A stretch of DNA of 64,000 nt, taken from Lytechinus variegatus (taxonomy: Eukaryota > Echinodermata > Echinoidea > Temnopleuroida > Toxopneustidae). Positions 2,474 through 63,172 of the stretch are shown here, piece by piece. The translations under genes and the position numbers were made by a program. The stretch spans positions 17,839,190 through 17,903,189 of the forward strand of contig NC_054740.1 in NCBI RefSeq assembly GCF_018143015.1, in the 5' to 3' direction. Each line of letters opens with the position of its first letter. Position 1 is the stretch's first letter. Under the pieces are notes generated by a model, which saw only the letters and a program-made list of their open reading frames with translations, searched no databases and was not told the DNA's origin.

Positions 2474-3385
2474 TCCGCTCCAGAAGTGAAAGACAACCAG
2501 GTTCTACGGCAGAAGACTCTTCTCCAGGCATGTACTGATCTAGAGTTTGAAGAACATCCATCTCGAGAACATAACCTAACCTCGGCAGAACTCGCCAGTC
2601 TCAAGAACACCTTTGTCATTGACAAACATAAACTTCTCTTCTGCTATGTACCAAAGGTAAGCTGTACCAGCTGGAAACATCTATTTCTTGTTTCCTACCA
2701 AATTTTCAACCCCGAAGTAAAACATAAAAGTGTGCATACTGAGTTTGAAAGAGTCTTCATGAAGGTCGGAAGGTTGGCGGAAAAGGATGCTAATCGGATA
2801 ATCAAAGACTATAGACAGTTCTTGTTTGTTCGTAACCCGTTCTCGCGTGTCCTGTCGGCTTACCGTGAAAAAATCGAATACAAGAACCCAAGTAGCCCGG
2901 ACCAGAACCACTACCCAAACTTCATCACCCGGTGGCTTAAGAAACACCATCTTGGACACTACCGAAGGAGAAATAACACCGCCGCTTACTCCTTTCCAGA
3001 ATTTGTCAGTTACTTCATTGCAAGGCGAATAGAAGACGAACACTGGAATGACCAGTATAACTTATGTCAGCCATGTCTGGTCGAGTATGACTTCATTGGA
3101 AAGTATGAGACCTTGCAAGATGATGTGGAACGTTTCCTGGGAACAATACCCAATGGATCGTCCTTGGTGTTTCCTAAAGCAGACCCTCAGAAGTTCACTC
3201 GGCATAGCTCGAGTGATGAGAATATGTCCAGGTATTATCAGAAGATCCGTGATAAAGATTTTAAGTCACTGATCGAGTGTTTATATCCAGATCTTCGATT
3301 ATTCGGGTACTCCATTCCTACAGTTATCCAAAGGCCATGGCTGAAGTTATCAAGCAAATACACCAAGCTGGTTGATGTTGGCTGA
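2474..3385 (+). CDS. Carbohydrate sulfotransferase (HNK-1ST/CHST8-14 type), last coding exon
   Basis: The protein should transfer sulfate from PAPS to a sugar hydroxyl on glycoprotein or glycosaminoglycan chains in the Golgi lumen. The exon encodes 303 residues. The 5'-phosphosulfate-binding motif VPKVSCTSWKHLF lies at about residues 59-71 of the exon, and the 3'-phosphate-binding motif FVRNPFSRVLSAYR at about 118-131. The family signature CQPCLVEYDFIGKYETL follows. An in-frame TAG forms the splice acceptor itself (TTCTTTTCATAG, pyrimidine-rich), so the exon begins at 2474 in phase 0 and has no plausible initiator. The Golgi signal anchor expected in this family must therefore be on an upstream exon, not seen. 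The reading frame closes with TGA and a poly(A) signal follows at 3601. The family is clear, but the acceptor sugar (GalNAc-4 type, dermatan or HNK-1) cannot be decided from this exon. Confidence 0.9.
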   Translation, partial: SAPEVKDNQVLRQKTLLQACTDLEFEEHPSREHNLTSAELASLKNTFVIDKHKLLFCYVPKVSCTSWKHLFLVSYQIFNPEVKHKSVHTEFERVFMKVGRLAEKDANRIIKDYRQFLFVRNPFSRVLSAYREKIEYKNPSSPDQNHYPNFITRWLKKHHLGHYRRRNNTAAYSFPEFVSYFIARRIEDEHWNDQYNLCQPCLVEYDFIGKYETLQDDVERFLGTIPNGSSLVFPKADPQKFTRHSSSDENMSRYYQKIRDKDFKSLIECLYPDLRLFGYSIPTVIQRPWLKLSSKYTKLVDVG

Positions 3386-5565: not shown

Positions 5566-5774
5566 GAGAAGGAAGGAGAGAAAGAAAGAAAGAAATAAAT
5601 AAAGAAAGAAAGGGGAAGTAAGGAAGGAAGAAAGAAAGGAGGAAGGAAGGAAAGAAGAAAGGGGAGAAAGGAAGAAAGAAAGAGGAAGGAACGAAGAAAA
5701 GACAGAAAATAAGGAAGAAAGAAAGCTAGAGACAGAAAAATGACAAACAGAAGGAGAGAAAGAGAAAAAATGAA
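5566..5774 (+). repeat. Homopurine GAAA/GGAA tract of about 200 bp
   Basis: Nearly every base on the + strand is a purine, mainly GAAA, GGAA and GAGA units with few interruptions. The complementary strand reads as an artificial Leu/Ser/Phe-rich open frame that is not a gene. Confidence 0.9.
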
Positions 5775-40500: not shown

Positions 40501-41488
40501 GTATGAGGAAGTAATATAAACACACACCACCTGAATCAATTATTCATCCACCATCACGTGGGTCTCCCAGCTATACTTTGTCATTTTTCATGCCAACATT
40601 CTTTTATTTCTTCTTCTTCTTCTCCTCCTCCTCCGTCATCTCATCTACATCTTCTCCTTCTCTTTCTTCTTCTTCTTCTCCTTCATCTCCATCTTCTCCT
40701 TCTCCTCCTCTTTCTTCTTTTTCTTCATCTTCTTCTTCCTTTTCCCATCTTCTTCCTCCTCTTCTTCTTCTCCTTCGTCTTTTCTTTGAAGATCCTCTGG
40801 TCGTACCTCTCAGGGTACAACGAGCATTTCTAAGAGCAATTAATGTCTGAAATGTGCAGTTCTGTAACTTTTTGGCAAGCAGGCAAATAGTTTTGCCACC
40901 ACTCTTCTAACAATAAAGGCCTATATAACAATATTAATTTTATATGTAAGGATTTCATTTTATTGCATTGATTTGTTGTACCCCATGCAAAGTTAACTTA
41001 AGATATTGGTTGTTCAGTGGCACTGAAGATTGTAAACTGATGGATTGATGAAACTTGAACTTTGTTGAACATTGTTACATAATTAATACGGGAAACTACT
41101 GAAATACATATAGCATGTACAGTGACATTTCACATGTGAAATTGTATATACATGTAATACATCTGCGAATCAATATTGTTGCAGGCTTTAGATTCGCATG
41201 TACATGTACATGTAATTAGTCCACGGTGTGCACATGTAGTCAACACGGCAGTCAACACTATGAATCATTCCTTTTGGCAAGAACAGATTGAACGAGAATT
41301 GTACAGGTATATCGAGAATGTTCAGTTAGAAAAAATAAACACTTTCCATTTATATTTGTTCAGTTGGAAAAAAACACATCACAAATATAAATGAAAAGTA
41401 TATAAGAATAAAATGTTCACCAATACTTACTTGAGTATGGTTCTTCGTAGTAGACCGATTCGGCCATAGAAAACCCAGCAATCGACAT
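24613..41488 (-). CDS. M6/proteolipid (PLP/DM20/GPM6) family membrane protein, gene B (complete)
   Basis: This is a paralogue of gene A with the same four-pass plan. Exons in transcript order are 41488-41431, 28877-28706, 28448-28289, 27458-27290, 26829-26717, 26023-25964 and 25587-24613. They total 1707 bp including TGA, or 568 residues. The start exon encodes MSIAGFSMAESVYYEEPYS and ends in phase 1, exactly what the next acceptor needs. The N-terminal cysteine cluster is PCKTCCLRC. The large loop has four cysteines (AAGIC, YEC, FMC, YMC) and CLDLRQWG. The sequence after membrane segment 4, LVHYVLNFSANYAKLRD, closely follows vertebrate GPM6. The tail is about 320 residues, Gly/Ser/Asn/Tyr-rich, and ends EYFI. 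Intron 1 is 12.6 kb. The family is certain; the exact vertebrate counterpart is not. Confidence 0.9.
25964..26023 (-). CDS. M6 gene B, exon with fourth membrane segment
   Basis: A 60-bp, phase-0/phase-0 exon with acceptor TTTCTACAG and donor GTAAGT. It encodes DVLIFYGLTLASAIIVVISL. Confidence 0.88.
26717..26829 (-). CDS. M6 gene B, exon with acidic part of the extracellular loop
   Basis: The acceptor is CATTCACTCAG and the donor GTAAGT. It encodes LIDYNQDAVDWADPRLPG, then a strongly acidic run containing EGEEDYFMC and DEDLDYMC. It is 33 bp longer than gene A's equivalent and supplies the last two loop cysteines. Confidence 0.87.
27290..27458 (-). CDS. M6 gene B, exon with third membrane segment and CLDLRQWG
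   Basis: The acceptor is GACCTTTAG and the donor GTAAGT; the exon starts in phase 0 and ends in phase 1. It encodes VMTVSYILLLIWLVILLITL, then the loop start with AAGIC and YYYECLDLRQW. Confidence 0.9.
28289..28448 (-). CDS. M6 gene B, exon with second membrane segment
   Basis: The acceptor is TCCCTTCTAG and the donor GTAAGA. At 160 bp it is identical in length and phase to gene A's second listed exon. It encodes VGVAIGTAVMVILSVLFLAM and an Arg/Lys-rich intracellular loop. Confidence 0.9.
28706..28877 (-). CDS. M6 gene B, exon with cysteine cluster and first membrane segment
   Basis: The acceptor is TTATCTTTACAG and the donor GTAAGC. The exon enters in phase 1 and leaves in phase 2, splitting the same Trp codon as in gene A. 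It encodes PGPCKTCCLRCPIPNLTC and then MFLLGVAGFCVGVVL. Confidence 0.9.
29107..29621. mobile_element. MITE with CGGGTCC...GGGTCCC-type ends (about 514 bp)
   Basis: The left end (CGGGTCCGGATTCATA, then TTGTTATAATAACAAA) matches the reverse complement of the right end (ACCCGTTTCATAAAA, then TTTTTATAATAGCAAA). A diverged internal part of the same family is at 53463-53808. Confidence 0.6.
34518..35141. mobile_element. TTAA-flanked MITE, 624 bp
   Basis: It opens TTAAAGGGCAAGTCCACC and ends GGTGGACTTGACCTTTAA. It is the long form of the 222-bp element at 7334. Inverted-repeat similarity extends inward over more than 60 bp. Confidence 0.85.
35861..36025. mobile_element. Short element with CAGGGGC...GCCCCTG ends
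   Basis: The left CAGGGGCTGCGGAA and the right TTCCGCGGCCCCTG are inverted repeats, with direct repeats CAATA just outside both ends. The 165-bp interior has G-runs on the left and C-runs on the right. Confidence 0.65.
38510..39153. mobile_element. TTAA-flanked MITE, 644 bp
   Basis: It starts TTAAAAGGATGGTCCAGGC and ends CTTCCCTTTAA. The interior carries the AAAATCGGA / AACGAAGTTATTGAA words shared by the other TTAA-type elements. Confidence 0.65.
39643..39893. mobile_element. MITE with CACTGTAAAAAATATTGGG termini (251 bp)
   Basis: The inverted repeats extend more than 20 bp inward (right end CCCAATATTTTTAGAGTG). An inner inverted pair, GGGTAATTAAGTGTCCAACC and GGTTGGACACATAATTACCC, shows the element is almost a full palindrome. 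Confidence 0.85.
40601..40787 (+). repeat. Pyrimidine-rich CTT/CTC tract of about 190 bp
   Basis: The tract is made of CTT, CTC and CAT triplets on the + strand. Open frames through it are Ser- or Leu-rich artefacts. It lies in intron 1 of M6 gene B, so that transcript would carry a purine-rich block. Confidence 0.9.
41431..41488 (-). CDS. M6 gene B, first coding exon
   Basis: ATG at 41488-41486 opens 19 codons (MSIAGFSMAESVYYEEPYS) plus one base before the donor GTAAGT. The phase matches the acceptor at 28877, completing an Ile codon. The exon is short, as in vertebrate PLP/M6 genes. The 12.6 kb gap to the next exon makes the link probable rather than proven. Confidence 0.7.
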
Positions 41489-48158: not shown

Positions 48159-51100
48159 GTAAGATAATTCATTAGCAAAATAAGAATTAATATCTTGTGT
48201 TTCCTAAAATAAGAATCGAAGTTCGAAGTGATTCAAAAAATATCGGTTTGAGTGAGTTACTGTGTGCCAGATTGGATGAGCTGAGACTAGTGAGCCCGTG
48301 CAAATAAGATAAATCATGACATTGCAAAGTAGAAATAGAATGTCACTATATCAGGGATTCTTTGAGAATGAGTGACCATAAATCTCTATAGATTTACATG
48401 ATTTCATGGATTTAGGAGCATTTTCAAGAAAGGGCTAACTTAGTAATTGTAAAAATATCATCTCATCACAGTCGGCAGTCGGACTTCCTAATAGGCCTAG
48501 TAATATGTTAGGCCTAAATCTAGTGCTAACTTACTAAGCTAAGGATTATCCTATAAATTTAGGAAATAAAAATATACTCTAACTCTACTAAAAGTTGAGA
48601 TTAAGAGAACAAATGCAAATAAAAGTAAAACTAGAAATGTGCCCCAAGCGTTCTTGCATGTTAATCTGAGTTGATTGTTTAGTTACGTTTAGCGGTATCT
48701 TCACATTTTCTGGCAGCCAAGTTGATGGGCTATCACTGGGTGATTTCAAGTTCGGTGTTGGTGTTGAGCACTCATTCAATGAACAAGGTTATAATATAAC
48801 CTTGTTCTCAGTTATATCTCCATGTGTGACAAAATAAGGGTGGCAATGTTTGGCTTATTTTCTCTTTTTCTTTGGGGCAAATGCTTGATTTTTTAACACT
48901 GACAGTTTCCATTAGACCTGTTAATTCATACTGCTTGGCTCTTATTTAAATTTGATTCTTTATATCATTTTTTCTTAATTAAAAATAGAGATCAAAAAAT
49001 GAAAATTTTCTTGCCATATTACTTTCCACCAATAGAGGGCGTACACAAAAATATGCCCAAAATTCAAGTTTTTGAGTGCTCTGGTGAATACAAAAATTAT
49101 TCCCACATTACTAATGATAAATAAATTAAAACTGTATGGAAATTAGTAATTTTGGTCACAAAAGTGATATTTTAATGATTTTTTAAAGTGTGTGCTCTAT
49201 ACAGCATTGGCATACCATAGTCCTACCTGTATTCTCCACAGGCCAGATGGTAGCAGTGAACAAGCACTTGTTCACTGCTACCATCTGGCCTGTGGAGAAT
49301 CTACAGGTAGGACTATGGTATGCCAATGCTGTATAGAGCACACACTCTAAAAAATCATTAAAATATCACTTTTGTGACCAAAATTACTAATTTTCATACA
49401 GTTTTAATTTATTTATCATTAGTAATGTGGGAATAATTTTTGTATTCACCAGAGCGCTCAAAAACTTGAATTTTGGGCATATTTTTGTGTACGCCCTCTA
49501 TTGGTGGATAGTAATATGGCAAGAAAATTTTCATTTTTTGATCTCTATTTTTAATTAAGAAAAAATTATATAAAGAATCAAATTTAAATAAGAGCCAAGC
49601 AGTATGAATTAACAGGTCTAATGGAAACTGTCAGTGTAAAAAAATCAAGCATTTGCCCAAAAGAAAAAGAGAAAATAAGCCAAACATTGCCACCCTTATT
49701 TTGTCACACATGGAGATATAACTGAGAACAAGGTTATATTATAACCTTGTTCATTGAATGAGTGTGAACAAGTGGGTGTTGAGTGTGAAAAGGCTGCTGA
49801 GCGTAAATAAGCGTAATTTATACAGGAAATCTGTATAAACTGTGGGTTCACCCAATGATTATAAAAACCACCATTGTGAATTTGGGCCATTAATTTTTAC
49901 CCAAAAAAAATTTCACCTCCCTACCCAAGACCTCAAATGTGGTCGTATTGATCTAATTGTTAGAGATCTAGAATTCTAGATCTACTTGCTGGCCTAGGAG
50001 AGCCTATATAGCCTAGGCCTATGGGAGACAAACTCCCTTCATGGTATGGAGAGTTACTTTGCAAAAGAAACTACCAACATGGGAACAGGGCAATTTTCCC
50101 ATCCAAAAATTTGGTAAAACTCTAGTAGGAAATGTTTAAGGAGAAATTGTACCAAAAAAATATTAAGTATCTGGGGATGAGTCTCCAATATTCATTGGTT
50201 GGGCTCCTCTACTGAGAATAACAGAATTTACCCCCCCCCCCCTTATATTTAATGTCAGCATTTCAGTGCAATTTCTGCAAGAGGATTGATTTCTTTGTGA
50301 TTGATCTTGTATGCGAGTGATTAAGAGGTGCTCACATTATATGGTATGGTTGGATCACTAGTGAATCATGAAAAATAGATAATGAAATGATGAGCCCTCC
50401 CCTATTGGAACATTTATTTGAAAATTGCTTCAAAAGATACAAAAATCTACATGTAGGCTCACATGTATAGTTGCATTTTAATTCAAACAAAGAAGAGAAA
50501 ATCTTGTGATACAGTTATTCAGAAGACAGAATTTGGGGAGTGATGTAGAAAAATAATTTTATGTCATATTCTCTTTTTCAGATGGGAGGAAGGAGAATGT
50601 CATGTTCGACAAGATCACATCTCGTATTCAGAGATTATGTTACAACCTGAATTCAGACTTCATTGACCCAGTAAGTGAACGTTTTGGGAGTTTTTTTTAC
50701 TCGTTTTGAGTCGGGCCTCCCTGTATGCCTTTTAAACTGATATCAAATGGTGTTTCATAATCATTCATTCAATAGACTTGTATAATTTTTGCATGAGGCA
50801 TTGCACACTGCCACACACCCAGTCCCTCCCCATAGTATAGAGGATATCTTGTGTTTTTGTACACTATCAAACAGTACTGGGTGGTGAAGAGAAAGAAAAG
50901 AGAGTATCAGTTAAAAACAACTTATATTTAAGAATGTGAATTATGATATTGTATTGAGCTAATCAGATAACTAGATATGAAGTACATGGGTCCAAGGTTA
51001 ATTCGCACCTATTTATTTATTGTAAAGAGTTCTTTGTTATTTTAAAAGGCTCTGCCATTCTAAACCCTGTGCACCTTGTCAAAACAACGTCTTGACAGGT

Positions 51101-54100
51101 TTCCCTTATATTACACATTCTACTGAAAATGATCGAAGTACACTCAGTTCAGTACACAGATGAATGGATTGTAAACAGATTGGATGGATTGTTGTACGAG
51201 TACACAGTAGACATGCACTTTCATCTCAATTGTTGGTGTATTTGAAGGATTGAAACAGTGAACATGCAGTAAGAACAAAATAAAAGGAAACTAGATGAAT
51301 TAATATCAGGCTTACTAAATTGTATATTATGGGTGGATAGTGGATACAGGTCCTTTTGTTATCCTTTCCAGTGATGGCAATATTATAGGGGGCAGTCCCT
51401 TACTCCTAATTTTACATGTAGTGAAAAGGGTTCAAAAATAAGATAGGAAAAAAGGATTCCAGTTTAAAAAAAAGAAATGTACGGGTTGTATCACTAGACA
51501 TGTACACGTTATTACTCCCATTTAATTCTAATCAAATTGGAAGAAAGGATTTCAGTTAAAAAAAGATGTGTGGGTCGTATCACTAGACATGTACACGTTA
51601 TTACTCCCATTTATTTCTAATCAAGAAAAATAAGATTGGAAGAAAGGATTTCAGTTAAAAAAGATGTGTGGGTCGTATCACTAGACATGTACATGTTATT
51701 ACTCCATTTATTTCTAATCAAGAAAAATTAGAACTTTATCTTTATGAAAAAAAACTGTTACATCACAAATAACCTTACTTAAAAGTTTAATGTCCTCTTG
51801 CCCAATACTTATCAAATGCTCTAGCATAGCCCCATATAAATTGTAGTACACAAGTGATCATGATAATAATTTATTTATAATTTGCCTTTTTAAAGAAATT
51901 GTATGCAAGTAACACTTTCAAACTTTGGAATGATTTATTGTCGAATACTAAAATACATATATTAGTGCTGCTCTGTCAAAGTCGATTAGATATCAAACCC
52001 ACTTCAGTGCATGAATTTTAATGTTTTTACATTATATTATTCCATTCTACAGGCTGTTATTACAATGAAGGTGATCAATGGGGTCTACCCTGGTGTGACC
52101 ACAGTCGAGCTAGATACCCTAGCGGCAGAAACAGCTGCTACCATGACAACCAAGCATCCTGACTACGCTGTCCTGGCAGCACGTATTGCCGTCTCTAACC
52201 TCCATAAAGAAACAAAGAAACTCTTCAGTGGTAAGTCCATGTCAAAGATAAGTTCTTGTAGTAGATGTCACAAAACCCTGGAGAAAACGTGTCTCAGAGA
52301 TATATCGAAAAATGTTGATTGTGATGCACCAAAGAACTAGTGTAGACTTTGGAATTACCAAAATGTTTACAAATTAATTTGTTCATGCACCTCCACAGAA
52401 ATGCATGTATAGGACTACTATAAATAGACCAAATGTTTTGTGGTGTGTTTTTGTTCAGCTTCAAATGTTGAGGCATGTGAAGAATATCCCCTACAGTGGA
52501 TCTTCTATATGATATTCCTTAACAACATAAACTTGAAAGCTGGCAATCATAAGTTTTACCTACAGGAGTTTGCTTTTAACATCCAGCAGTTTTTGTTAGA
52601 CCACACTCGTTCTTCAAATTTTGTTATTTACGAAATCATTCAGGATGATTTATAAAGATCTTTTTTCTTTTTTTTACTTTATCTGATTTCATGTATCATA
52701 AATTAAATCTTGGAAAATATGCTGGAACTGTTATGAAACATTGCAATAATATTTTTCTTCAAATAGAGAGGGACATGGAATGATTCTCATGCTCTTAATA
52801 TTTTCTTTTTCTTCTAAAGCTGTAATGACGGATCTTTACGAGTACGTAAACCCAAGGAACAATCTTCATTCTCCTCTTATCAGCAAAGAAACTATGGATA
52901 TCATCAATGAGAATGCTGATGTAAGTAAATGTGTAGATAGCTATCTTATACAGGATCAAATTGTCAATATAACAGTTGATGTTATTTTCATACAGTCCTA
53001 CACATAATAGTTTTTGTAAAAGGAATAGAATATGAAACAATAGCTAGACAATGAATCTTATAAGATTGACATATTTTTATTTCAAGTTCATGGTTTAGAA
53101 GTACAAGATATTTCAAGTCAAAATTGAGTTAAGATTGCATTCTCTGAAATAAAAATAAAATCAAAGTCAAAATTTGAAGGGTGGATTTTTCATATGTCAT
53201 TGCTTTACAATTACTGTTGAATTTACCCATTTGGCTATTCTTGGTTCGTACAGTTGTATATCCATGATATTTATACAAATTTTGTTTGTTTTCTTTCCAT
53301 AGAGGTTGAATTCTGCAGTACTGTATGACAGGGACTTTGAATACAACTTCTTTGGGTTCAAGGTGAGTGGTGTGACATGTTTACTTAGTGATGGTAAAGT
53401 GTGAAACTGGTGTTTAATCTCAAACAATATGCATTCCCTGATTCTACATCAAACATAATGCCAGTTGTGAGACGATCTCAAAATGATTTCAAACAGAATC
53501 CAATAAAATTATCAATCAAGTGTCATGAAATAGTAAAAGTAAAGTGCCAAATGATTATGGTAGATAATGTGTTAAATTGCCGAGTAGTTTGAAAGCATGG
53601 CATATCAGCCAAGTGGCCATTTTCCAAGCAATAGTAATACACTGTCCCACATGTTCTCATCTGTGTTGGCAGTCTTCAATGTGATTAATATTTATTTGAT
53701 TTCTTCAGTTCCGTTTATGGACACTAATCAGTTGTAGATGTATGATGGCATGGCAAGTACTGATTTTAAACACTTTTTTTTAATTAAATCAGTATTTGCT
53801 GCAACTACATTAGTTTAACATCAAGATTGCTAACACTGTTGTTCATTCCCCCCTTTACTTACATGTAGGCCAAAATAAAGTGAAGATTTTCCATGAATTC
53901 CAAAAAGGGGATTAGATGAATATGCCTTCAAGTCACTTCTGTGCTCATGTGAAGTAAAATTCATGTCTAATTTAGTAATCTCTTTAGCTTGTTCGATATG
54001 AGAATTTAGAGATTGAGGTGATTGAATCTAGCCAAGAAAAATTTTCTCATTTTCCATGATGTCTTTTTATTTCAGACACTAGAAAGATCCTACCTCCTGA

Positions 54101-57100
54101 AGATCAACGGCAAAGGTATGTGAAGCTTGAAGAGATCTTTTTTGTTATATTTTTTGCAGCTTTCATTAGAGAATTAGTAACCTAGAAGTAACACATATGT
54201 TCAAGAATGATTTACTGTTCTTTCATCAAACTTGATAAGTATTATGTCTAGGATATTGGTAGTGAATATTGCATTTGAAGTGAAAACAAATACAATTAAA
54301 ATTTGATTTGCAAATTACCATCTTGATGAATGTTGATATATCATTGTCTATAATTCTGAATTTCTGATATTTTCTTATAATGTAGTTGCTGAAAGACCCC
54401 AACACATGTTGATGAGAGTTGCTGTTGGTATCCATGGAAGGGACATCGATGCTGCAATAGAGGTAAGTTTATAGCCTTCCCATAATCCTTCACTCCTGAT
54501 ACACTGTAGGTAGGTTGCTGTGGGTATCCATGGAAGGGACATCGATGCTGCAATAGAGGTAAGTTTATAGCCTTCCCATAATCCTTCACTCCTGATACAC
54601 TGTAGGTAGGTTGCTGTGGGTATCCATGGAAGGGACATCGATGCTGCAATAGAGGTAAGTTTATAGCCTTCCCATAATCCTTCACTCCTGATACACTGTA
54701 GGTAGGTTGCTGTGGGTATCCATGGAAGGGACATCGATGCTGCAATAGAGGTAAGTTTATAGCCATAATCCTTCACTCATATACAAGTTTATGTTCACTT
54801 AATCTACAGCACTGGGAACCACATATCTCCTGTTTTATTTGTTTATCACATGCATGCATCGCAAAAGCAGTTGCATGCATACATTCAGAAAGTTTACCAT
54901 TATCAAATATTGTGTGAAATTTATCTGAACTCCTTAATACTTGATCATACCTCTTTTCTCTTTGTCTTTCTCTGTCTAGACGTACAATCTCTTGTCTGAT
55001 AGATGGTTTACTCACGCTTCACCGACGCTCTTCAATGCTGGTACCAATAGACCACAGCTATCAAGGTGAGACATTAAAGAGCTCTGTATAAAAGGTTCTA
55101 GTCCCTAACTTTAAAAATTAATATTGACAAGAATTAAGAAAGTGGTGCAACTTCCAATCTGAAGATCTTTTGGTCTATGGTATCTTCCGTCTTATAACAC
55201 TATTTTTTGTGTCGCCTGAATAGCAGAAGCAAGATATAGGTGCGGTTTGTCATGTGGGTTATTTTCAAACTCAGTACTGCCGCTATATTGAATCTGGTAA
55301 TGCAAGTGTGACGTCCAGAGGTGTTCCACTTGTTTGCTATGCTGTAACAGTGGAACTCTAACTGCTTGTACAGTCAATTTTTTTGTTGTTGAATAGAGCA
55401 TTATTGTCTCCTTTTTTTGGGGGGGGTGGGGTTGCTCCAGATGGTGTAATCATATTGTTAGAAATCTTTGTACAATGCCAAAAACCAGAACCCATCCAAA
55501 TGATTTGTGTTGTTAGGAGTAAAGTTTGATCACTTCTTCCTGATGTATAGCCTAATATCATAAGATAAGTTTTTGAAATGAATCATCTTGTTTTGTTTCA
55601 ATCAGCTGTTTCCTTCTAACTATGCAAGATGATAGCATCGATGGTATCTATGAGACACTAAAGAATTGCGCCCTCATCTCTAAGACGGCTGGTGGTATCG
55701 GTCTAAATGTTCACAACATCAGGGCATCTGGTAGCTACATTGCAGGGGTAAGGAATCATGTCCATATACCATTGATCAGGATGGTCTAGTTTGGGCGAGA
55801 GGTTAATTTCAGGGCTTTCAGGCCCTCGAGATGATTTCAAACCTGATGACTGACTCTGGATAACATATCCTACTAATGTCTTCTAAACATGGAATTAACT
55901 ATCAAATTTCATTTACTGAAACATTCAACTTGAAACCTTTTTTGATCCCCTCATTAATGATTTGAAATTCTGTAATGTTTCTGAAAAAATCTATTTCTAT
56001 TCCATTTCAAATTTCCATGTCTACATTGTACTTTCTTCAAGTATCACTTGAAGTATTTAAGGTATGATTTGTTCTATACAAAATAAAGGCTTCCTGTCCA
56101 AGATTGCCCAAGTCGGCACATTTTACTTGGTCCCATTCTGATTGCATTAATGGTTGATGGATAAAGAAATATTTCAGAAGTCTGAATAAAAAGTATGGCA
56201 TCTACTTCAGAAGAAGCTTACATTTTTTCATAAGTATTCCATGAATACAGTGAATCTGCTGCCTTTGTCAAATCTCTCTTTTGGGACCACATAAACCTGT
56301 TCAGCTTAATTAAAGAAATTCAACTTAGAAGGGTCAAATATAGCATAAATTTTCCTTAATCTGGTCTGAAAAAATGCTTCCACTTCGATTACTTGATTTA
56401 TTCAAATTTGACTGATCATGGCCTATATTTGTTATCTGTTCCTCTCTTTATCAGACAAATGGCAACTCCAATGGTTTATTACCCATGCTTCGTGTGTACA
56501 ACAATACAGCTAGATATGTAGATCAGGGAGGCAATAAGGTAGGTATTAAATCAACTTGTTCTATTGGAGAACATGTTTGCCCCTTAAATACATTAATGGT
56601 AATGATTATCAACAGATATAAAAGAAATGAATGAATAAATTTGAAGAAAAAAAAATTAGTACTGAAACAAGAATGACTGTCTTATTTTCAAAGTTATCCC
56701 ATTATATGAATCTTTTAAATTTGACATGATTTGCTCTTTGTACTAGGGACAAACTGATGGGCATAGTATTCCATATTCTAAGGTTATGAAGATGTTTAAA
56801 CATCTTTTGAATCCCATTTGTCCTGTGCTTTAACAGGCAAGGAATGAATAAATGAAAAAAAAAAGATGAAATGGCTACATATGACATACTATGAAAGATT
56901 AATAATAATGGTATTTTATAAAGCATCATATCAATTCTGTAAAGTGCTTGTAACTGCTCAAGACACATGTTAAGTATTGGTAAATTAAAAAGCTTTATGG
57001 AATATTTTGAATGATTCAGCCGAGATAAACTTCTTCATGATTTACAGTAGAGTAGGCACAGTTTTATGACATCTCATTGCAATGGTAAGATCTTCTTTCT

Positions 57101-60100
57101 TTCCTTCATCTAGCGTCCTGGTGCCTTTGCCATCTACCTAGAGCCATGGCATGCTGATATCCATGATTTCTTAGACTGTAAGAAGAACCACGGCAAGGAG
57201 GAACAGAGAGCTAGAGACCTATTCTATGCCCTCTGGATCCCTGATCTCTTCATGAAGAGGGTTGAAGCCGATGGTGACTGGACACTCATGTGCCCTCATG
57301 AATGCCCTGGCTTGGAAAACGTTTGGGGAGATGAATTCGAACAGCTCTACGAGAGGTGAGTCGGCCTATTTAAATATAATGGCCCATATTCTGAAGTCAG
57401 GTTTAACTCTTAACATGCCACGCACACTACTAACCCAACGCCACAGTGCTAATCCGATGCTAATCCCCTGTGCCAGCCACAAAACCCCCCTGTGCCACAT
57501 TGATTTTTGGATCGCGAGTCGTATTCACTCCTTTCAATAGTCATGATTACAATTGCTTGTAACTCTAACGATTAGTTTATCCACAAAATATTGTGTAGTA
57601 AAGTTGTAGGAAATTTCATACCCCTTATAATGGTGTCCTCATTATATGGATTGGTTATTATCTTTACCGCTAAAATATGAGTTGTATCAAGTAGTTCCAT
57701 TTTGTGGAGTGTTTTGTATGGATCAAAAAACCTAGGTCTCTTCCCTCTCAGAGGCGGAGCCATATCTTGTAAAAAATGTAGAAATACTCGAAAAATTTGA
57801 ATGTAAGCCGCGTGAGTAAGTTGATCTGTCAGAAAGCAGAGTTCGCACTGCACACAATAGTGCTAATTACGGCGTGCATGCGATGCGCAATACAATGCAA
57901 AACGGCGTAACAATGATTGTAATTCCGAATGTGCGCAGTCATGCACGAAGCAGGCGAGGGTAGGAAACAATGCAAGCACAAAGCAATCAATAGTAGGCGT
58001 GCGAGCACGAGTGTGGCATGTTATAGTAGGATACGTAGTGTGCACGAAGCACTCAATGAGTTAACTTAGACCACGGTCTAACTCTACTAAAATTATTGGA
58101 GCCAAGTAATCAAAAACTAAGTTTATATTGTATATGTGTAATATTTTGTATCCTTTTGCTTTCATAATTAAGAAAATACTTCAGTTATCATTCCCAGACA
58201 ATTATGAACAATTTGGGTGTCATATGAGTTAATAAACTGAATGTTTACTGTTAGGGATTTATGCTCCAGTTAACTCTCCATACTTAAACCACAACTTTAA
58301 ACCCGACTTCAGAATACGGGCCTATGTAAAATAATTCTGTATAGTACAGTATGTGTAAATCTGATGTCTGCTGAAAGGCTTACTGCTTTCAGCTTGATGC
58401 ACTGTGCAGTAGATTTTTTTTTGTATATGTAATGGGGAAACATTGCATCCATAATGCTGGATCAATTAGTCTTCCCTGTGATAATGATTTGATCAGGATA
58501 CCACATGATATATTACATGTTTATGTTAATTTAAAAAACTTATTAACCCCCTCCCCCCCAAAAAAAATACAAGAATTTACCATCGGGGTGCTATAATGTG
58601 TAGTTATGTATGGGAATAAAATGAAAAGGAAAGTCATAAAATGATCTTTCTCCAGAATTTGGGTTTGCAAAGGGGCAAACTCTTCACTGTTGCAACATTC
58701 ATACCAAGTCTTTCAGATGTCCATGAATTTGTTCCACTAAAATTCATTTTCTTATTTTCCTCAGGTATGAGAAAGAAGGAAAGGGTAGGAAGACAATGAA
58801 GGCCCAGGCTCTGTGGTATGCCATCATTGAATCTCAAACAGAGACTGGTACCCCATATATGCTCTACAAGGACCATTGTAACAGGAAGAGTAACCAACAA
58901 AATTTGGGAACCATCAAATGCAGTAACCTGTGTACAGAGATCGTAGAGTATTCAAGTCCTGATGAGGTCAGTAACTAAGACCCTCTTTCTTAAAACATGT
59001 CGATGAATTATGATTGAAATTGTGACACATGGCTAATAGGAAATATGTCACGAAAAGTTTTTATTCAGTATGTAAAAAAATTCAGTATGTTTTATATTGC
59101 AAGCTCAGTTTTGAAATGTTTGGGGATTGAAGACTTTTTGAAGTATATGCTAGTTCAGGTCAAATTTTCTGTTGTATATTTCATGAGTAATATACCATGA
59201 AGGAATGCCAATTCCTGTAAACAAAATCACAATATTCCTAGGGTCCTTGTCAATATCATCCTTATATGCGACCTCGTCTCTGAATGTACCGGTAATGAAT
59301 ATCTGTCTCGGTGACAAAAAAAAAGTTATGAAGGAAAAATACATTGAATAGATAGGCATCTTGATTGAATTAACTACTGAGTATTTGAATTGCAAGTTAA
59401 ATAAACTAGATCTATGTTGGGTATCTGACTCAAAACACATTTTGATTTTATTACAGGATAGATTATTGTTTAGACCTGTGTTTTGACCTATCAGCTTGTC
59501 TCACAAATATTTTTTAAGAATTGAACTCTGTAATAACTACTTGTAGTTTTCACCAATACTTTGTGTATGTTTAGCTTATCAATCTCATTGGAAAGTAGTG
59601 GAAGATCAGATTGGTAGTGATTTTTAACCTGAATGCTAAGAAAGCATGAATGCTTGTAAGCAAGCAACCAGAGGACCGACGGTTTCTCTGAGGGACCTGG
59701 TAATGAGGATTAATGCCTTACCAAAGGGCACTAGTGCACCAATTGGGATTCGAACCCTGGTCACCGGAATCCGAATCCCCCGCTCTACCGACTGAGCTAT
59801 CATGCCTCAGAGAGGTCAGTTATCTTGACACTTCATGTTTATTTGGTTGCCTATATAGGTGGCTGTGTGTAATCTTGCCTCCATTGCTCTGCCACGATTT
59901 GTGAAGCAAGACCGAACATTCGACTTCAAGAAGCTTGAAGAGGTTACCATGGTGATCACTCGCAATCTCAACAAGATCATCGAAATCAACTACTACCCAA
60001 TTCCAGAGGTAAGCAAGTTCAAACAAAATTACTCCATATTCAAACAGATATTGGTGGATGTTCCCCGGTAGAATGAAATTTAAGATATTCAGCAAAATTC

Positions 60101-63100
60101 TTTCTGATGCTATCAAATTGAATGCTATTTTAAATCAGAAAGCTATATATTTTCAAGGAAATTAAAGATGGGTAATTCCATGCAGTATATACATCTGACC
60201 TCCTTTAATGCCAGACCTTCCTATTGTAATTTGCCTCAGCTTTATGCTTGAATCACTTGAATAGTACCTGAAGCGAAGTTAGACAATTTTAGGGGATGGA
60301 CATACAAATTATTACATAGAATGTAATTCACTTTAAAATCTTGATCAAGTTGGATATAAACAATTTTGTAAATTATTGATAGGCCCATTGTGACCTATTT
60401 ACATCTAGATTGAAAGCATAAATGGTCCATTGAACATCTCAGTTGATGTATGTAAAAGTCCCAACATCATCTTTATTATTTCTTTAATTACAGGCTAGGC
60501 GAAGCAACTTCCGTCATCGTCCCATCGGAATTGGTGTTCAGGGTCTAGCTGATGCTTTCATCCTCATGAGGTTCCCCTTTGAGAGCGCAGAGGCCAAGAA
60601 ACTCAACATCCAGATCTTTGAAACCATCTACTATGCTGCTCTGAAGGCTAGCTGTGAGATTGCTGCTAAGCTTGGCCCTTATGAGACATATGAGGGCTCA
60701 CCTGTCAGCAAAGGAGTAAGTAAATATTCCTACAGGGAGCTCGCGACTTTATAGAGACATTGAAATATTTAGAGATCTTTTTTTATATCTCTCCATTTTA
60801 CCCATAATCGTGTAAGAAAATTCTCAAAACAAGTCGATGCTTCATAGACCATTAAACAGTGGTAATGACAAAACTGCTGCAGGGGTAGTCCACTTTGAGG
60901 CTAGTATAATTTTGATAAAGTAAAACTAAACATGTGAAACTTAAAAAATTATGGAAATCATTAAAAAAATACAGTCATGTCATTCCAGAAATTGTCATTG
61001 CTTTGTGAGAGAGCAATATGTTAGTATGTACAACCAATGATTTTGTAAGCAATTCTAAGTTGTTTTTTTACCTTCCACTGTAACATGCTCTCAACGTACT
61101 CGTAACTTTCTCTTACAGATTCTTCAGCATGACATGTGGGACGTGACCCCAACTGACCTCCACGACTGGGCTGCCCTCAAGGCCGACATCGCCAAGCACG
61201 GCGTCCGTAACAGTCTTCTCCTCGCTCCCATGCCAACTGCATCCACCGCTCAGATCCTTGGTAACAACGAATCCATCGAGCCGTACACCAGTAATATCTA
61301 CACGCGTCGTGTGCTTTCAGGAGAGTTCCAGGTCGTCAATCATCATCTTCTTAGGGACCTTACCGACATGGGTCTGTGGTCTGATGAGATGAAGAACATG
61401 CTCATTGCTCACTCTGGATCTATTCAGGTTGGTAGCCGACATCTTCAGTTTTTACTTATTAATACAGGGCTTGTTCCCAGTATAATATATACATCCTTCT
61501 CCGGGGTTGATCTGTCTCCTTCAAGATTGAAGATTTTTGGAGATAAAGACTCGGTGTGCGAGTAGCTTGGTTCAGGTGCAATGTGCATACCAGTGTCTTT
61601 TTTTGGGGCGGGGGGAGAGGTTAGAGGGGTAAATAGGAATCTTTTAGGCAGTTAGTCAGACAGGCAGTTTGGTGGGCAGATGGGTGTTGCAAATCTGGAT
61701 CAAACTACTTCCTCAATTTTACCTGAATATTCATGAAACTTGGCAACCACGTTGGTCTTGGAGTAAAATTGTAGATTTGAAGCAAGGTTTGCAGATGGAT
61801 GAGATATACTTCAGAATTTATAGAATAAATTGTATTTCTTGTCATGTATGATTTCTAAATTAACTTGTTGAAATCCTGTATTTAGATGAAGATGTGGTAT
61901 TCTATCAATGAGACTTCATTTTTTGTCATTCCATTTTATTCTTTCAGAACATTCCATCAATCCCAGATGACATCAAGGCATTGTATAAGACTGTTTGGGA
62001 GATCTCACAGAAGACTGTTATTCAGATGGCTGTTGACCGCGGTGCATACATTGATCAGAGTCAATCACTTAATATTCACATTGCTGAACCAAACTATGGC
62101 AAGCTAACCAGTATGCACTTCTTTGCATGGAGATCGGTGAGTTGTGCCCATTTATGATGTTGAATATTATAAGGGGGGAGGGGGGGGGGTTCACAATGAA
62201 TTAAAGAAGTGTGACTTTAAATCATGTTTAAATGCCAAAATAGAATTGACATACATCAAGTTATCTCATTGATGGAAACGCGATAACGCTCAGCATAATC
62301 TTCATCAGTACCATGATGTGTTGTATATCACATGCAATTTAGAATTTTCATGGGATTTTTTCGTCACAGTTTTTTGTGAAACGCCACCAAGTTTTCATCT
62401 TACTAATTCCAATGTCAGTTGTAAATGAATGTAGATGTCCTGCCAATACAGTAGGTTGTATCGTATTTCCACAATTACTGCACTTTGTGAATAGTGATCA
62501 TGAATCATACAATCAGCAGCTTTGTATAATATTGATAATGGGAGCAGTCTTGGGTAGAATGGTTGTGACAGAAGAGAATTTAGATTACCTGCGTTATAGT
62601 CAAAACCTCATCTGCATGTACAAACATGATCCAAAACACATTGAAAGCTCAACACCTTGTAAGATTCATCCTAGAACAAGCTTTATTCAAAGTTTGATGA
62701 TCTGACGTGAAAATAGACGTAAGACCAGAATCAAAAGGTCAAGCTTATACTGGAAATTACCCATTGATCAATTATTTATACTGGCTTGAATTGGGGTTTA
62801 TCTGATTGATTGGTGTTAGAGATCAAACTTCTTTACACAGTCAAGAAAAGTAGGTAAATCATCTAATTTTTGTATTATATTTAACAACACAAACTTTAAT
62901 ATTCAGTAACTTTATTTTTCATAACAATACATTTTTTTATGATTCTTATCAATGATCTTTATGTACAGGGTCTGAAGACGGGTATGTATTACCTTCGCAC
63001 ACGCCCAGCTGCTAACCCTATCCAGTTCACTCTCAATAAACTAAGCTTGAAGGAGAAATCAGGAACCAAGCTATCAGATGCTGAAGAACAAGAGAAGGAG

Positions 63101-63172
63101 AAGGCCAAGAATGAAGCAGCTATGCTCTGCTCTCTAGAAAACAAGGATGCCTGTCTGTCATGCGGATCTTAG
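48125..63172 (+). CDS. RRM1: Ribonucleoside-diphosphate reductase large subunit (class I RNR alpha)
   Basis: The enzyme reduces ribonucleoside diphosphates to deoxy forms in the cytosol, working with the R2 or p53R2 radical subunit. Seventeen exons give 2409 bp, or 802 residues, against 792 in human, with clear identity throughout. An N-terminal ATP-cone (about 1-97) keeps [12 protein letters not shown], the activity-site region. Catalytic residues are present: C223, then N432, C434 and E436 in NLCTEI, and C449 in AVCNLAS. The radical-transfer tyrosines are Y742 and Y743 in [10 protein letters not shown]. The C-terminal redox pair CLSCGS holds C797 and C800. All introns are GT-AG. The start ATG follows a TACCAAG context and gives [15 protein letters not shown], five residues longer than human. 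The promoter carries E2F sites. The oddity is a 96-bp tandem repeat of the exon 7 end. Confidence 0.98.
48769..49764. repeat. Near-perfect 1 kb palindrome in RRM1 intron 1
   Basis: Two arms of about 496 bp meet at 49265/49266. By eye they differ at only eight or nine positions. Each outer end has its own small palindrome, GAACAAGGTTAT followed by ATAACCTTGTTC. The right arm is bounded by CACTTGTTCAC (49265-49275) and GTGAACAAGTG (49764-49774), which look like terminal inverted repeats of a 510-bp element. This suggests two copies of one MITE in inverted orientation. There is no coding frame. Confidence 0.9.
49964..49983. repeat. 20-bp perfect palindrome
   Basis: AGATCTAGAATTCTAGATCT is its own reverse complement. 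It is isolated, in RRM1 intron 1. Confidence 0.7.
50582..50670 (+). CDS. RRM1: RRM1 exon 2
   Basis: The acceptor is CTCTTTTTCAG and the donor GTAAGT. It encodes [20 protein letters not shown] onward to DFIDP, part of the ATP-cone. Confidence 0.95.
51447..51735 (+). repeat. Three tandem copies of a unit of about 98 bp, RRM1 intron 2
   Basis: The unit contains GTATCACTAGACATGTACA and TTATTACTCC, then a C/T-rich and A-rich stretch. It recurs at about 51447, 51545 and 51645. Copies 2 and 3 are nearly identical; copy 1 is more diverged. Confidence 0.85.
52053..52230 (+). CDS. RRM1: RRM1 exon 3
   Basis: The acceptor is CCATTCTACAG and the donor GTAAGT. It encodes the activity-site region [20 protein letters not shown] and ends at KKLFS plus one base. 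Confidence 0.96.
52820..52920 (+). CDS. RRM1: RRM1 exon 4
   Basis: The acceptor is TTCTAAAG and the donor GTAAGT. It encodes [20 protein letters not shown] and on to NENAD. Confidence 0.95.
53303..53362 (+). CDS. RRM1: RRM1 exon 5
   Basis: A 60-bp exon encoding [20 protein letters not shown]. The acceptor is TTTCCATAG and the donor GTGAGT. Confidence 0.95.
53463..53808. mobile_element. Diverged internal part of the CGGGTCC-ended MITE family
   Basis: GTTGTGAGACGATCTCAAAA at the left, CACTGTCCCACAT in the middle and TGCTGCAACTAC at the right match, in order, parts of the element at 29107. The ends are missing or unrecognisable. It lies in RRM1 intron 5. Confidence 0.55.
54076..54115 (+). CDS. 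RRM1: RRM1 exon 6
   Basis: A 40-bp exon encoding [13 protein letters not shown] plus one base. The acceptor is TTTATTTCAG and the donor GTATGT. Confidence 0.94.
54386..54462 (+). CDS. RRM1: RRM1 exon 7
   Basis: It encodes [11 protein letters not shown], then [15 protein letters not shown], ending in phase 0 at donor GTAAGT. The last 45 bp and the donor are repeated three more times downstream. Confidence 0.94.
54418..54776 (+). repeat. 96-bp tandem array duplicating the 3' end of RRM1 exon 7
   Basis: Units begin at 54418, 54514, 54610 and 54706; the last is truncated. Each holds 45 coding bases ([15 protein letters not shown]), a GTAAGT donor and intronic sequence that ends ACACTGTAGGTAG just before the next unit. 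The three extra copies are identical by eye. They differ from the exonic copy at one base (GTG for GTT). Long minus-strand open frames across the array are artefacts of the repeat length being a multiple of three. Confidence 0.95.
54980..55065 (+). CDS. RRM1: RRM1 exon 8
   Basis: The acceptor is TCTGTCTAG and the donor GTGAGA. It encodes [20 protein letters not shown] and on to PQLS, ending inside the Ser codon before catalytic Cys223. Confidence 0.96.
55606..55747 (+). CDS. RRM1: RRM1 exon 9
   Basis: The acceptor is TTTCAATCAG and the donor GTAAGG. It encodes catalytic C223 in SCFLLTM, then [19 protein letters not shown] and GSYIAG of the specificity-site region. Confidence 0.96.
56455..56538 (+). 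CDS. RRM1: RRM1 exon 10
   Basis: An 84-bp exon encoding [20 protein letters not shown] and YVDQGGNK. The acceptor is CTTTATCAG and the donor GTAGGT. Confidence 0.96.
57114..57355 (+). CDS. RRM1: RRM1 exon 11
   Basis: The acceptor is CTTCATCTAG and the donor GTGAGT. It encodes [13 protein letters not shown] and on to [20 protein letters not shown], ending in a split Arg codon. Confidence 0.96.
57381..58322. mobile_element. MITE (GGCCC..TATTCTGAAGTC family) with a nested insertion
   Basis: The outer ends GGCCCATATTCTGAAGTC and GACTTCAGAATACGGGCC match the intact copy at 15451-15772, reversed. A 652-bp insertion (57409-58060) splits it, flanked by TTAACT direct repeats at 57403-57408 and 58061-58066. 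It lies in RRM1 intron 11. Confidence 0.85.
57409..58060. mobile_element. Nested 652-bp insertion
   Basis: The 6-bp flanking repeat TTAACT occurs once at the same place in the intact paralogous copy. Inside, TAACATGCCAC (57411-57421) and GTGGCATGTTA (58013-58023) are inverted repeats, and GCACACTAC/GTAGTGTGC form another pair near the ends. The insert is richer in CG and GCATGC words than its surroundings. No transposase frame was seen. Confidence 0.75.
58765..58966 (+). CDS. RRM1: RRM1 exon 12
   Basis: The acceptor is TTTTCCTCAG and the donor GTCAGT. It encodes [20 protein letters not shown], then [19 protein letters not shown] with catalytic N432, C434 and E436. Confidence 0.96.
59645..59811 (-). 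mobile_element. tRNA-derived SINE
   Basis: Read on the - strand, the head looks like a tRNA. The A box TAGCTCAGTCGG lies at 59799-59788 and the B box GGTTCGAATCC at 59756-59746. A non-tRNA body follows to about 59645. The cloverleaf is imperfect in the anticodon stem and the match continues past the acceptor region, so this is a SINE rather than a working tRNA gene. It ends about 47 bp before RRM1 exon 13. Confidence 0.8.
59859..60008 (+). CDS. RRM1: RRM1 exon 13
   Basis: The acceptor is GCCTATATAG, with a weak pyrimidine tract, and the donor is GTAAGC. It encodes [14 protein letters not shown] with catalytic C449, then [13 protein letters not shown]. Confidence 0.95.
60494..60715 (+). CDS. 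RRM1: RRM1 exon 14
   Basis: The acceptor is TTTAATTACAG and the donor GTAAGT. It encodes [20 protein letters not shown] and on to [12 protein letters not shown]. Confidence 0.96.
61119..61427 (+). CDS. RRM1: RRM1 exon 15
   Basis: The acceptor is TCTCTTACAG; the donor GTTGGT is non-consensus. It encodes [20 protein letters not shown] and [10 protein letters not shown] and ends SGSIQ. Confidence 0.95.
61948..62136 (+). CDS. RRM1: RRM1 exon 16
   Basis: The acceptor is TTCTTTCAG and the donor GTGAGT. It encodes [20 protein letters not shown], then [20 protein letters not shown]. Confidence 0.96.
62969..63172 (+). CDS. RRM1: RRM1 exon 17
   Basis: The acceptor is TATGTACAG. It encodes [20 protein letters not shown] with the radical-path tyrosines, a charged Lys/Glu-rich linker and the C-terminal CLSCGS. 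The stop is TAG. Confidence 0.97.

Follow-up and report, generated by a model that had tools for sequence, protein, structure and literature searches.

In test genes that carry a duplicated 5' splice site, identical donors compete for one downstream acceptor. Human genes contain minisatellites at exon-intron boundaries whose copy number is variable and whose expansion is possibly due to slippage or unequal crossover (PMC2812944). In potato, a tandem duplication over an intron-exon border made a new intron, as shown by RNA reads (PMC4974935), and a review lists 188 events under the tandem duplication mechanism (PMC3443670). The array described here, in the RRM1 gene of Lytechinus variegatus, resembles the human boundary minisatellites (PMC2812944) in that its unit spans an exon-intron border, with 45 nt of exon and 51 nt of intron. 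The units are arranged head-to-tail and are highly alike (period 96, 99% matches), with a length in the range of tens to hundreds of base pairs that marks a minisatellite. No title among the matches listed in a literature search naming RRM1 referred to an array in this gene, and we do not claim that such an array is unreported. The array has the look of a fairly recent tandem repeat, ordinary in kind and moderately curious in place.

The window, by which we mean the whole 64-kb stretch of DNA analyzed, contains RRM1 on the forward strand. The exons were mapped by tblastn with a human RRM1 query, after which an exon table and a translation were made. The first exon was not located in this search of the window, and the located exons are called 2-17.
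50582..63172, forward strand: RRM1, large subunit of ribonucleotide reductase, 16 exons (2-17), stop codon included
54386..54462, forward strand: true exon 7, 77 nt, encoding 26 residues with the first codon split (from tblastn, the exon table, and splice matrices)
54980..55065, forward strand: exon 8, acceptor score 12.6
The reading frame is intact over 790 residues across exons 2-17, and the 15 introns (270-1409 bp) are all GT-AG. Exon 7 ends in phase 0 at GAG|GTAAGT, and the acceptor of exon 8 is the top-scoring AG of intron 7, the runner-up scoring 5.0. A cryptic acceptor-like AG of intron 7 (score 5.0) is located at 54810, ∼60 nt downstream of the last donor of the array. The 87 residues encoded by exons 7-9 matched solved ribonucleotide reductase large subunits over their full length (best E 4.7e-48), the best-matching chains being what we take to be the human and yeast proteins. 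Rfam gave no match in the 64-kb window.

RRM1 is an essential gene, and no second copy of it was found in the assembly (869.6 Mb, 33 contigs) by searches in which only the best candidates were scored. All seven genome matches to the barrel domain PF02867 lay inside the RRM1 gene at this locus, and neither a second RRM1 gene nor a retrocopy with the spliced form was found in this family search. An 80-base exon 7 query gave four genome matches, each of them in the array, the part of exon 7 outside the array occurred once in the genome, and the array region together with exon 7 matched only at the RRM1 locus. Contigs C1-C19 have chromosome-scale lengths (96.7-23.4 Mb) and jointly make up all of the genome except ∼0.08 Mb; C20 and C21 are 5.8 and 6.6 kb.

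Tandem Repeats Finder (TRF) gave 17 rows for the window, and the array has the top score among them (687). The unit, which includes the consensus donor GAG|GTAAGT, is present four times, with starts at 54418, 54514, 54610, and 54706.
54418..54764, forward strand: tandem array, 96-bp unit, 3.6 copies by TRF
54418..54513, forward strand: copy 1, the terminal 45 nt of true exon 7 (third codon GTT) and 51 nt of intron
54514..54609, forward strand: copy 2, a 45-nt exon-like part (GTG) and 51 nt of intron
54610..54705, forward strand: copy 3, the same sequence as copy 2
54706..54785, forward strand: copy 4, a 45-nt part the same as in copies 2 and 3, followed by diverged intron sequence, with gapped homology ending at 54785
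54504..54513, forward strand: CTGTAGGTAG, the last 10 nt of the unit, outside the homology with the flank behind copy 4
Copies 2, 3, and 4 agree at every position of their 45-bp exonic parts, and copy 1 is one synonymous base off (GTT versus GTG, both Val). The 51-bp intronic parts behind copies 1-3 are also identical. Behind copy 4 the intron part shows a 5-nt indel, a 1-nt indel, and one mismatch in 41 aligned columns; its local alignment score of 27 was reached by none of 2000 shuffles. The sequence GAGGTAAGT occurs four times in the window on both strands, always within the array, compared with a chance expectation of 0.27, and none of 100 shuffles reached four. In the window, CTGTAGGTAGG was found only at the three unit junctions, plus one further site with one mismatch. 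The 10 nt of CTGTAGGTAG contain both candidate AGs of the unit and are possibly junction filler that supplied them. Derivation of the unit's AG from the acceptor of exon 7 itself, by a whole-exon duplication later shortened, was not supported by alignment: the last 30 nt of the unit scored 8.0 against the 60 nt before exon 7, a value reached by 253 of 2000 shuffles. On the reverse strand, the array is traversed by two open frames, of 143 and 133 codons (54341-54772 and 54375-54776, respectively), because the unit length is divisible by three. A zf_CCCH_5 Pfam match on the antisense frame (22.4 bits) lies below the curated cut-off of 25 and is not credible.

The general frequency of such repeats was estimated from 20 stretches of 10 kb at fixed positions, five on C1 and one on each of C2-C16. 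The sampled 200 kb contained 11 arrays with a period of 30-300 bp and at least 2.5 copies, distributed over seven of the 20 stretches and covering 3346 of 200,000 bases (1.7%). Two arrays belonged to a stricter class (period 50-200 bp, at least 3.5 copies). One of these (stretch L016, 903-1234; 83 bp, 4.0 copies, 98% matches) equals the RRM1 array in regularity, and the other is 81% matched. If arrays were placed at random, one or more of the 15 RRM1 donors would fall in an array with a probability of ∼0.22, or 0.08 for the stricter class. RRM1 carries a second tandem array in the intron that separates exons 2 and 3 (51440-51732; period 89-98 bp, 2-3 copies), and this one is more diverged than that of exon 7. 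Given how common arrays are in the sample and the presence of this second one, a border repeat in one gene is no great surprise, and selection should remove many such border-spanning cases. Elsewhere in the window, an open frame of 303 codons (2474-3385) matched PF03567, a sulfotransferase family (6.7e-43), and is closely preceded by a 31-bp tandem repeat (2286-2346), and simple-repeat tracts of TTC and AGAA were present at 40608-40786 and 5567-5725, respectively.

The four donors of the array are the same 9-mer and score 14.0 bits each in a small matrix built on the 15 RRM1 donors, the highest value for the gene.
54460..54468, forward strand: donor 1 (the true donor), GAG|GTAAGT, recurring at 54556, 54652, and 54748
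Use of donor 2, 3, or 4 extends exon 7 by 96, 192, or 288 nt, respectively, and in all three cases the translation passes through the intron codons GTA AGT TTA into a TAG, placing a stop at residue 185 of the partial protein. Inclusion of one, two, or three 45-nt copies as separate exons adds 15, 30, or 45 residues with no stop. The preliminary description had reported a 96-bp unit, present four times, that copies the end of RRM1 exon 7 with its donor, and TRF and the comparison of units confirm this. Translation likewise bears out its 45 bp in phase 0, its additions of 15, 30, or 45 residues without a frameshift, and its TAG after three codons of read-through, the last of these for each of donors 2, 3, and 4. 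The statement that the copies compete with an exon 7 donor that is itself duplicated agrees with the equal scores. For the array boundaries, given as 54418..54776, the start was correct and the end falls between the TRF end at 54764 and the end of gapped homology at 54785.

Experiments with duplicated donors often favor the donor nearest the downstream acceptor, which here is donor 4, and predominant use of donor 4 would yield mainly unproductive RRM1 message. In a predicted fold of 54300-55050, the mean unpaired probability was 0.26 for donor 1 versus 0.49, 0.47, and 0.34 for donors 2-4, and thus the predicted pairing does not favor donor 1. We nevertheless infer that donor 1 is the one mainly used, given that the gene is essential, that its located exons are intact, and that the searches gave no second RRM1. 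This survival argument is weaker if the sequenced animal is heterozygous. Exon 7 (54386/54462) pairs the lowest-scoring acceptor of the gene with its highest-scoring donor by matrices of 16 and 15 sites, and its recognition may therefore lean on the multiplied donor. The accessible part of PMC8389229 held nothing of use on donor choice.

The candidate acceptors within the unit were scored with a matrix built on the 16 RRM1 acceptors only, with the 502 other AGs in RRM1 introns serving as decoys.
54512..54513, forward strand: in-frame candidate acceptor AG of copy 2, score -9.6; same at 54608 and 54704
54508..54509, forward strand: competing AG, 4 nt upstream and out of frame, score -1.1; same at 54604 and 54700
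The real acceptors scored from -4.2 to 12.7 when each was left out in turn. All 16 lie above the in-frame AG, which was equaled or exceeded by 343 of the 502 decoys; for the upstream AG, 13 of the 16 real sites were higher and 109 of the 502 decoys were equal or above. The number of AG-free bases before the acceptor was 22-109 for the real sites, 2 for the in-frame AG, and 33 for the upstream AG. The true acceptor of exon 7, at -4.2 the lowest of the gene, ranks under the upstream AG of the array; because the matrix is small and places this working acceptor last, a low score alone does not exclude use of an acceptor. If the upstream AG is used, the mini-exons are 49 nt long and the frame is broken in all seven combinations of copies, with a stop at residue 204 or 213.

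Inclusion of neighboring copies would require introns of 51 nt (in-frame AG) or 47 nt (upstream AG) between them. For comparison, the gap between two exon matches that follow each other in the profile was taken as an intron. The 72 myosin-head matches yielded 21 introns (∼161 to 8415 nt) and the 124 kinesin matches yielded 36 (∼291 to 5134 nt), to which the 15 of RRM1 were added; in the resulting 72 introns, not all independent as some genes stand in near-equal pairs on one contig, the shortest was ∼161 nt and none was below 150 nt. The gap method could miss very short introns swallowed within a match. Among 29 hand-picked matches of the 196 for myosin and kinesin, nine contained more than 20 nt of extra DNA, and no short intron was seen in the three of these that were read by eye. 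At C11:20908624 the stops sit beyond the donor of the exon, the downstream intron having been pulled into the match, and at C4:12127119 and C9:23412100 the extra DNA is mainly in-frame coding sequence. Two others, with 387 and 351 extra nt and many stops, look like ordinary introns. The accessible parts of PMC5435141 and PMC8634487 give no minimum intron length. Outside the window, several myosin and kinesin exons form pairs with equal or near-equal scores whose members share a contig at distances from less than 1 Mb to several Mb (for example, C2:10731685 and C2:12826650; C5:22979309 and C5:28174576; C12:18672049 and C12:18951094). Such pairs may have arisen by recent duplication, or the assembly may have retained both alleles; RRM1 does not belong to the genes with paired exons. 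Five of the seven copy combinations need the short introns. Single inclusion of copy 3 gives introns of 147 and 325 nt (143 and 325 nt with the upstream AG), which is borderline, and single inclusion of copy 4 gives 243 and 229 nt (239 and 229 nt), lengths within the measured range.

We consider, with a probability of roughly 0.7, that the array is a recent minisatellite expansion over the exon-intron border and that normal RRM1 message is still made via donor 1. Near-identity of the units, with a single diverged unit at the edge, is typical of a minisatellite. The expansion would have begun with a tandem duplication of ∼86 bp over the border of exon 7 and intron 7, closed with ∼10 nt unmatched to the right flank, and would then have been amplified to four copies, minisatellite-like, by unequal exchange or replication slippage. 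Exon 7 would be defined by the acceptor before 54386 and by donor 1, which of the four equal donors is the nearest, and would be spliced to exon 8 at 54980. Donors 2-4 would act as decoys whose use extends exon 7 into the TAG, and the transcripts so made would be expected to be degraded. With exons 2-17 intact and no other RRM1 copy found, some normal message must come from this locus or its other allele, and the array probably leaves that message intact or spoils part of it.

The same equality of the four donors could mean that the extra ones are used appreciably, that the TAG-containing extensions decay, and that the dose of RRM1 is lowered or regulated, carriers then being hypomorphs or mostly heterozygotes. 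The shared stop at residue 185 and the predicted accessibility of donors 2-4, no less than that of donor 1, are consistent with this, but we regard it as unlikely: RRM1 is essential and the searches gave no other copy of it, so selection against heavy use would be strong except for a rare allele, and there is no sign of regulation. It is quite improbable that the animal lacks the extra units and that these arose by the joining of alleles or an error in the consensus. Two stitched alleles could account for the T/G difference and for the unlike intron at the edge, the near-equal myosin and kinesin exon pairs may be alleles kept twice, and a heterozygosity of ∼3% for L. variegatus (PMC11310861) counts in the same direction. 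However, the 19 chromosome-size contigs suggest long reads and the 350-bp array is shorter than a long read, the exon 7 sequence outside the array occurs only once, and the units carry differences.

The preliminary description had favored exon birth, with the copies included as 45-nt mini-exons that add 15, 30, or 45 residues. Its AG-GTT before each extra copy is present, but the second AG 4 nt upstream had gone unmentioned. An AG directly before each copy, a GT donor behind it, and 45 bp in phase 0 free of stops do fit such an exon, as do the intron lengths left by copy 4 or copy 3 alone, and an exon 6 of only 40 nt suggests that the gene tolerates short exons. We find the proposal poorly supported and very improbable, because no real acceptor scores as low as the in-frame AG, the better AG upstream destroys the frame in every combination, and adjacent copies need 47-51-nt introns; in addition, the insertion would land in a segment that closely matches solved relatives of RRM1. 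We would be greatly surprised if a single copy, most likely copy 4 with its introns of 243 and 229 nt, were present as a 45-nt exon in part of the RRM1 messages, with 15 residues repeated in the enzyme and the copy number differing between animals. Were such inclusion true, an exon would here be observed at its birth, in an essential gene that has no second copy. The array would have significance for exon or intron birth only if RNA showed the copies to be used, which the sequence makes unlikely. An array that is real and varies between animals would be a natural test of the choice among four identical consecutive donors in an essential gene, and of the amount of unproductive splicing that can be tolerated there.

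Like the test genes with duplicated 5' splice sites, RRM1 has several identical donors and one downstream acceptor; unlike those constructs, the array is natural and lies in an essential gene. The human boundary cases differ in that they belong to segmental duplications of recent origin, have paralogues, and are backed by RNA (PMC2812944), whereas the searches gave no second copy of RRM1 and its splicing is predicted from sequence. As in the potato case (PMC4974935), a border-crossing duplication carries splice signals and a separate, purely intronic tandem duplication is located in the same gene; in contrast to potato, the RRM1 unit is repeated four times. The potato piece contains a real acceptor, a putative branch site, and a pyrimidine tract (PMC4974935), whereas the RRM1 piece contains a real donor (14.0) and an AG that is present but scores -9.6 in frame and -1.1 out of frame. 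Because the duplicated piece brings a donor without a good acceptor, extended exons are a likelier by-product of this array than mini-exons.
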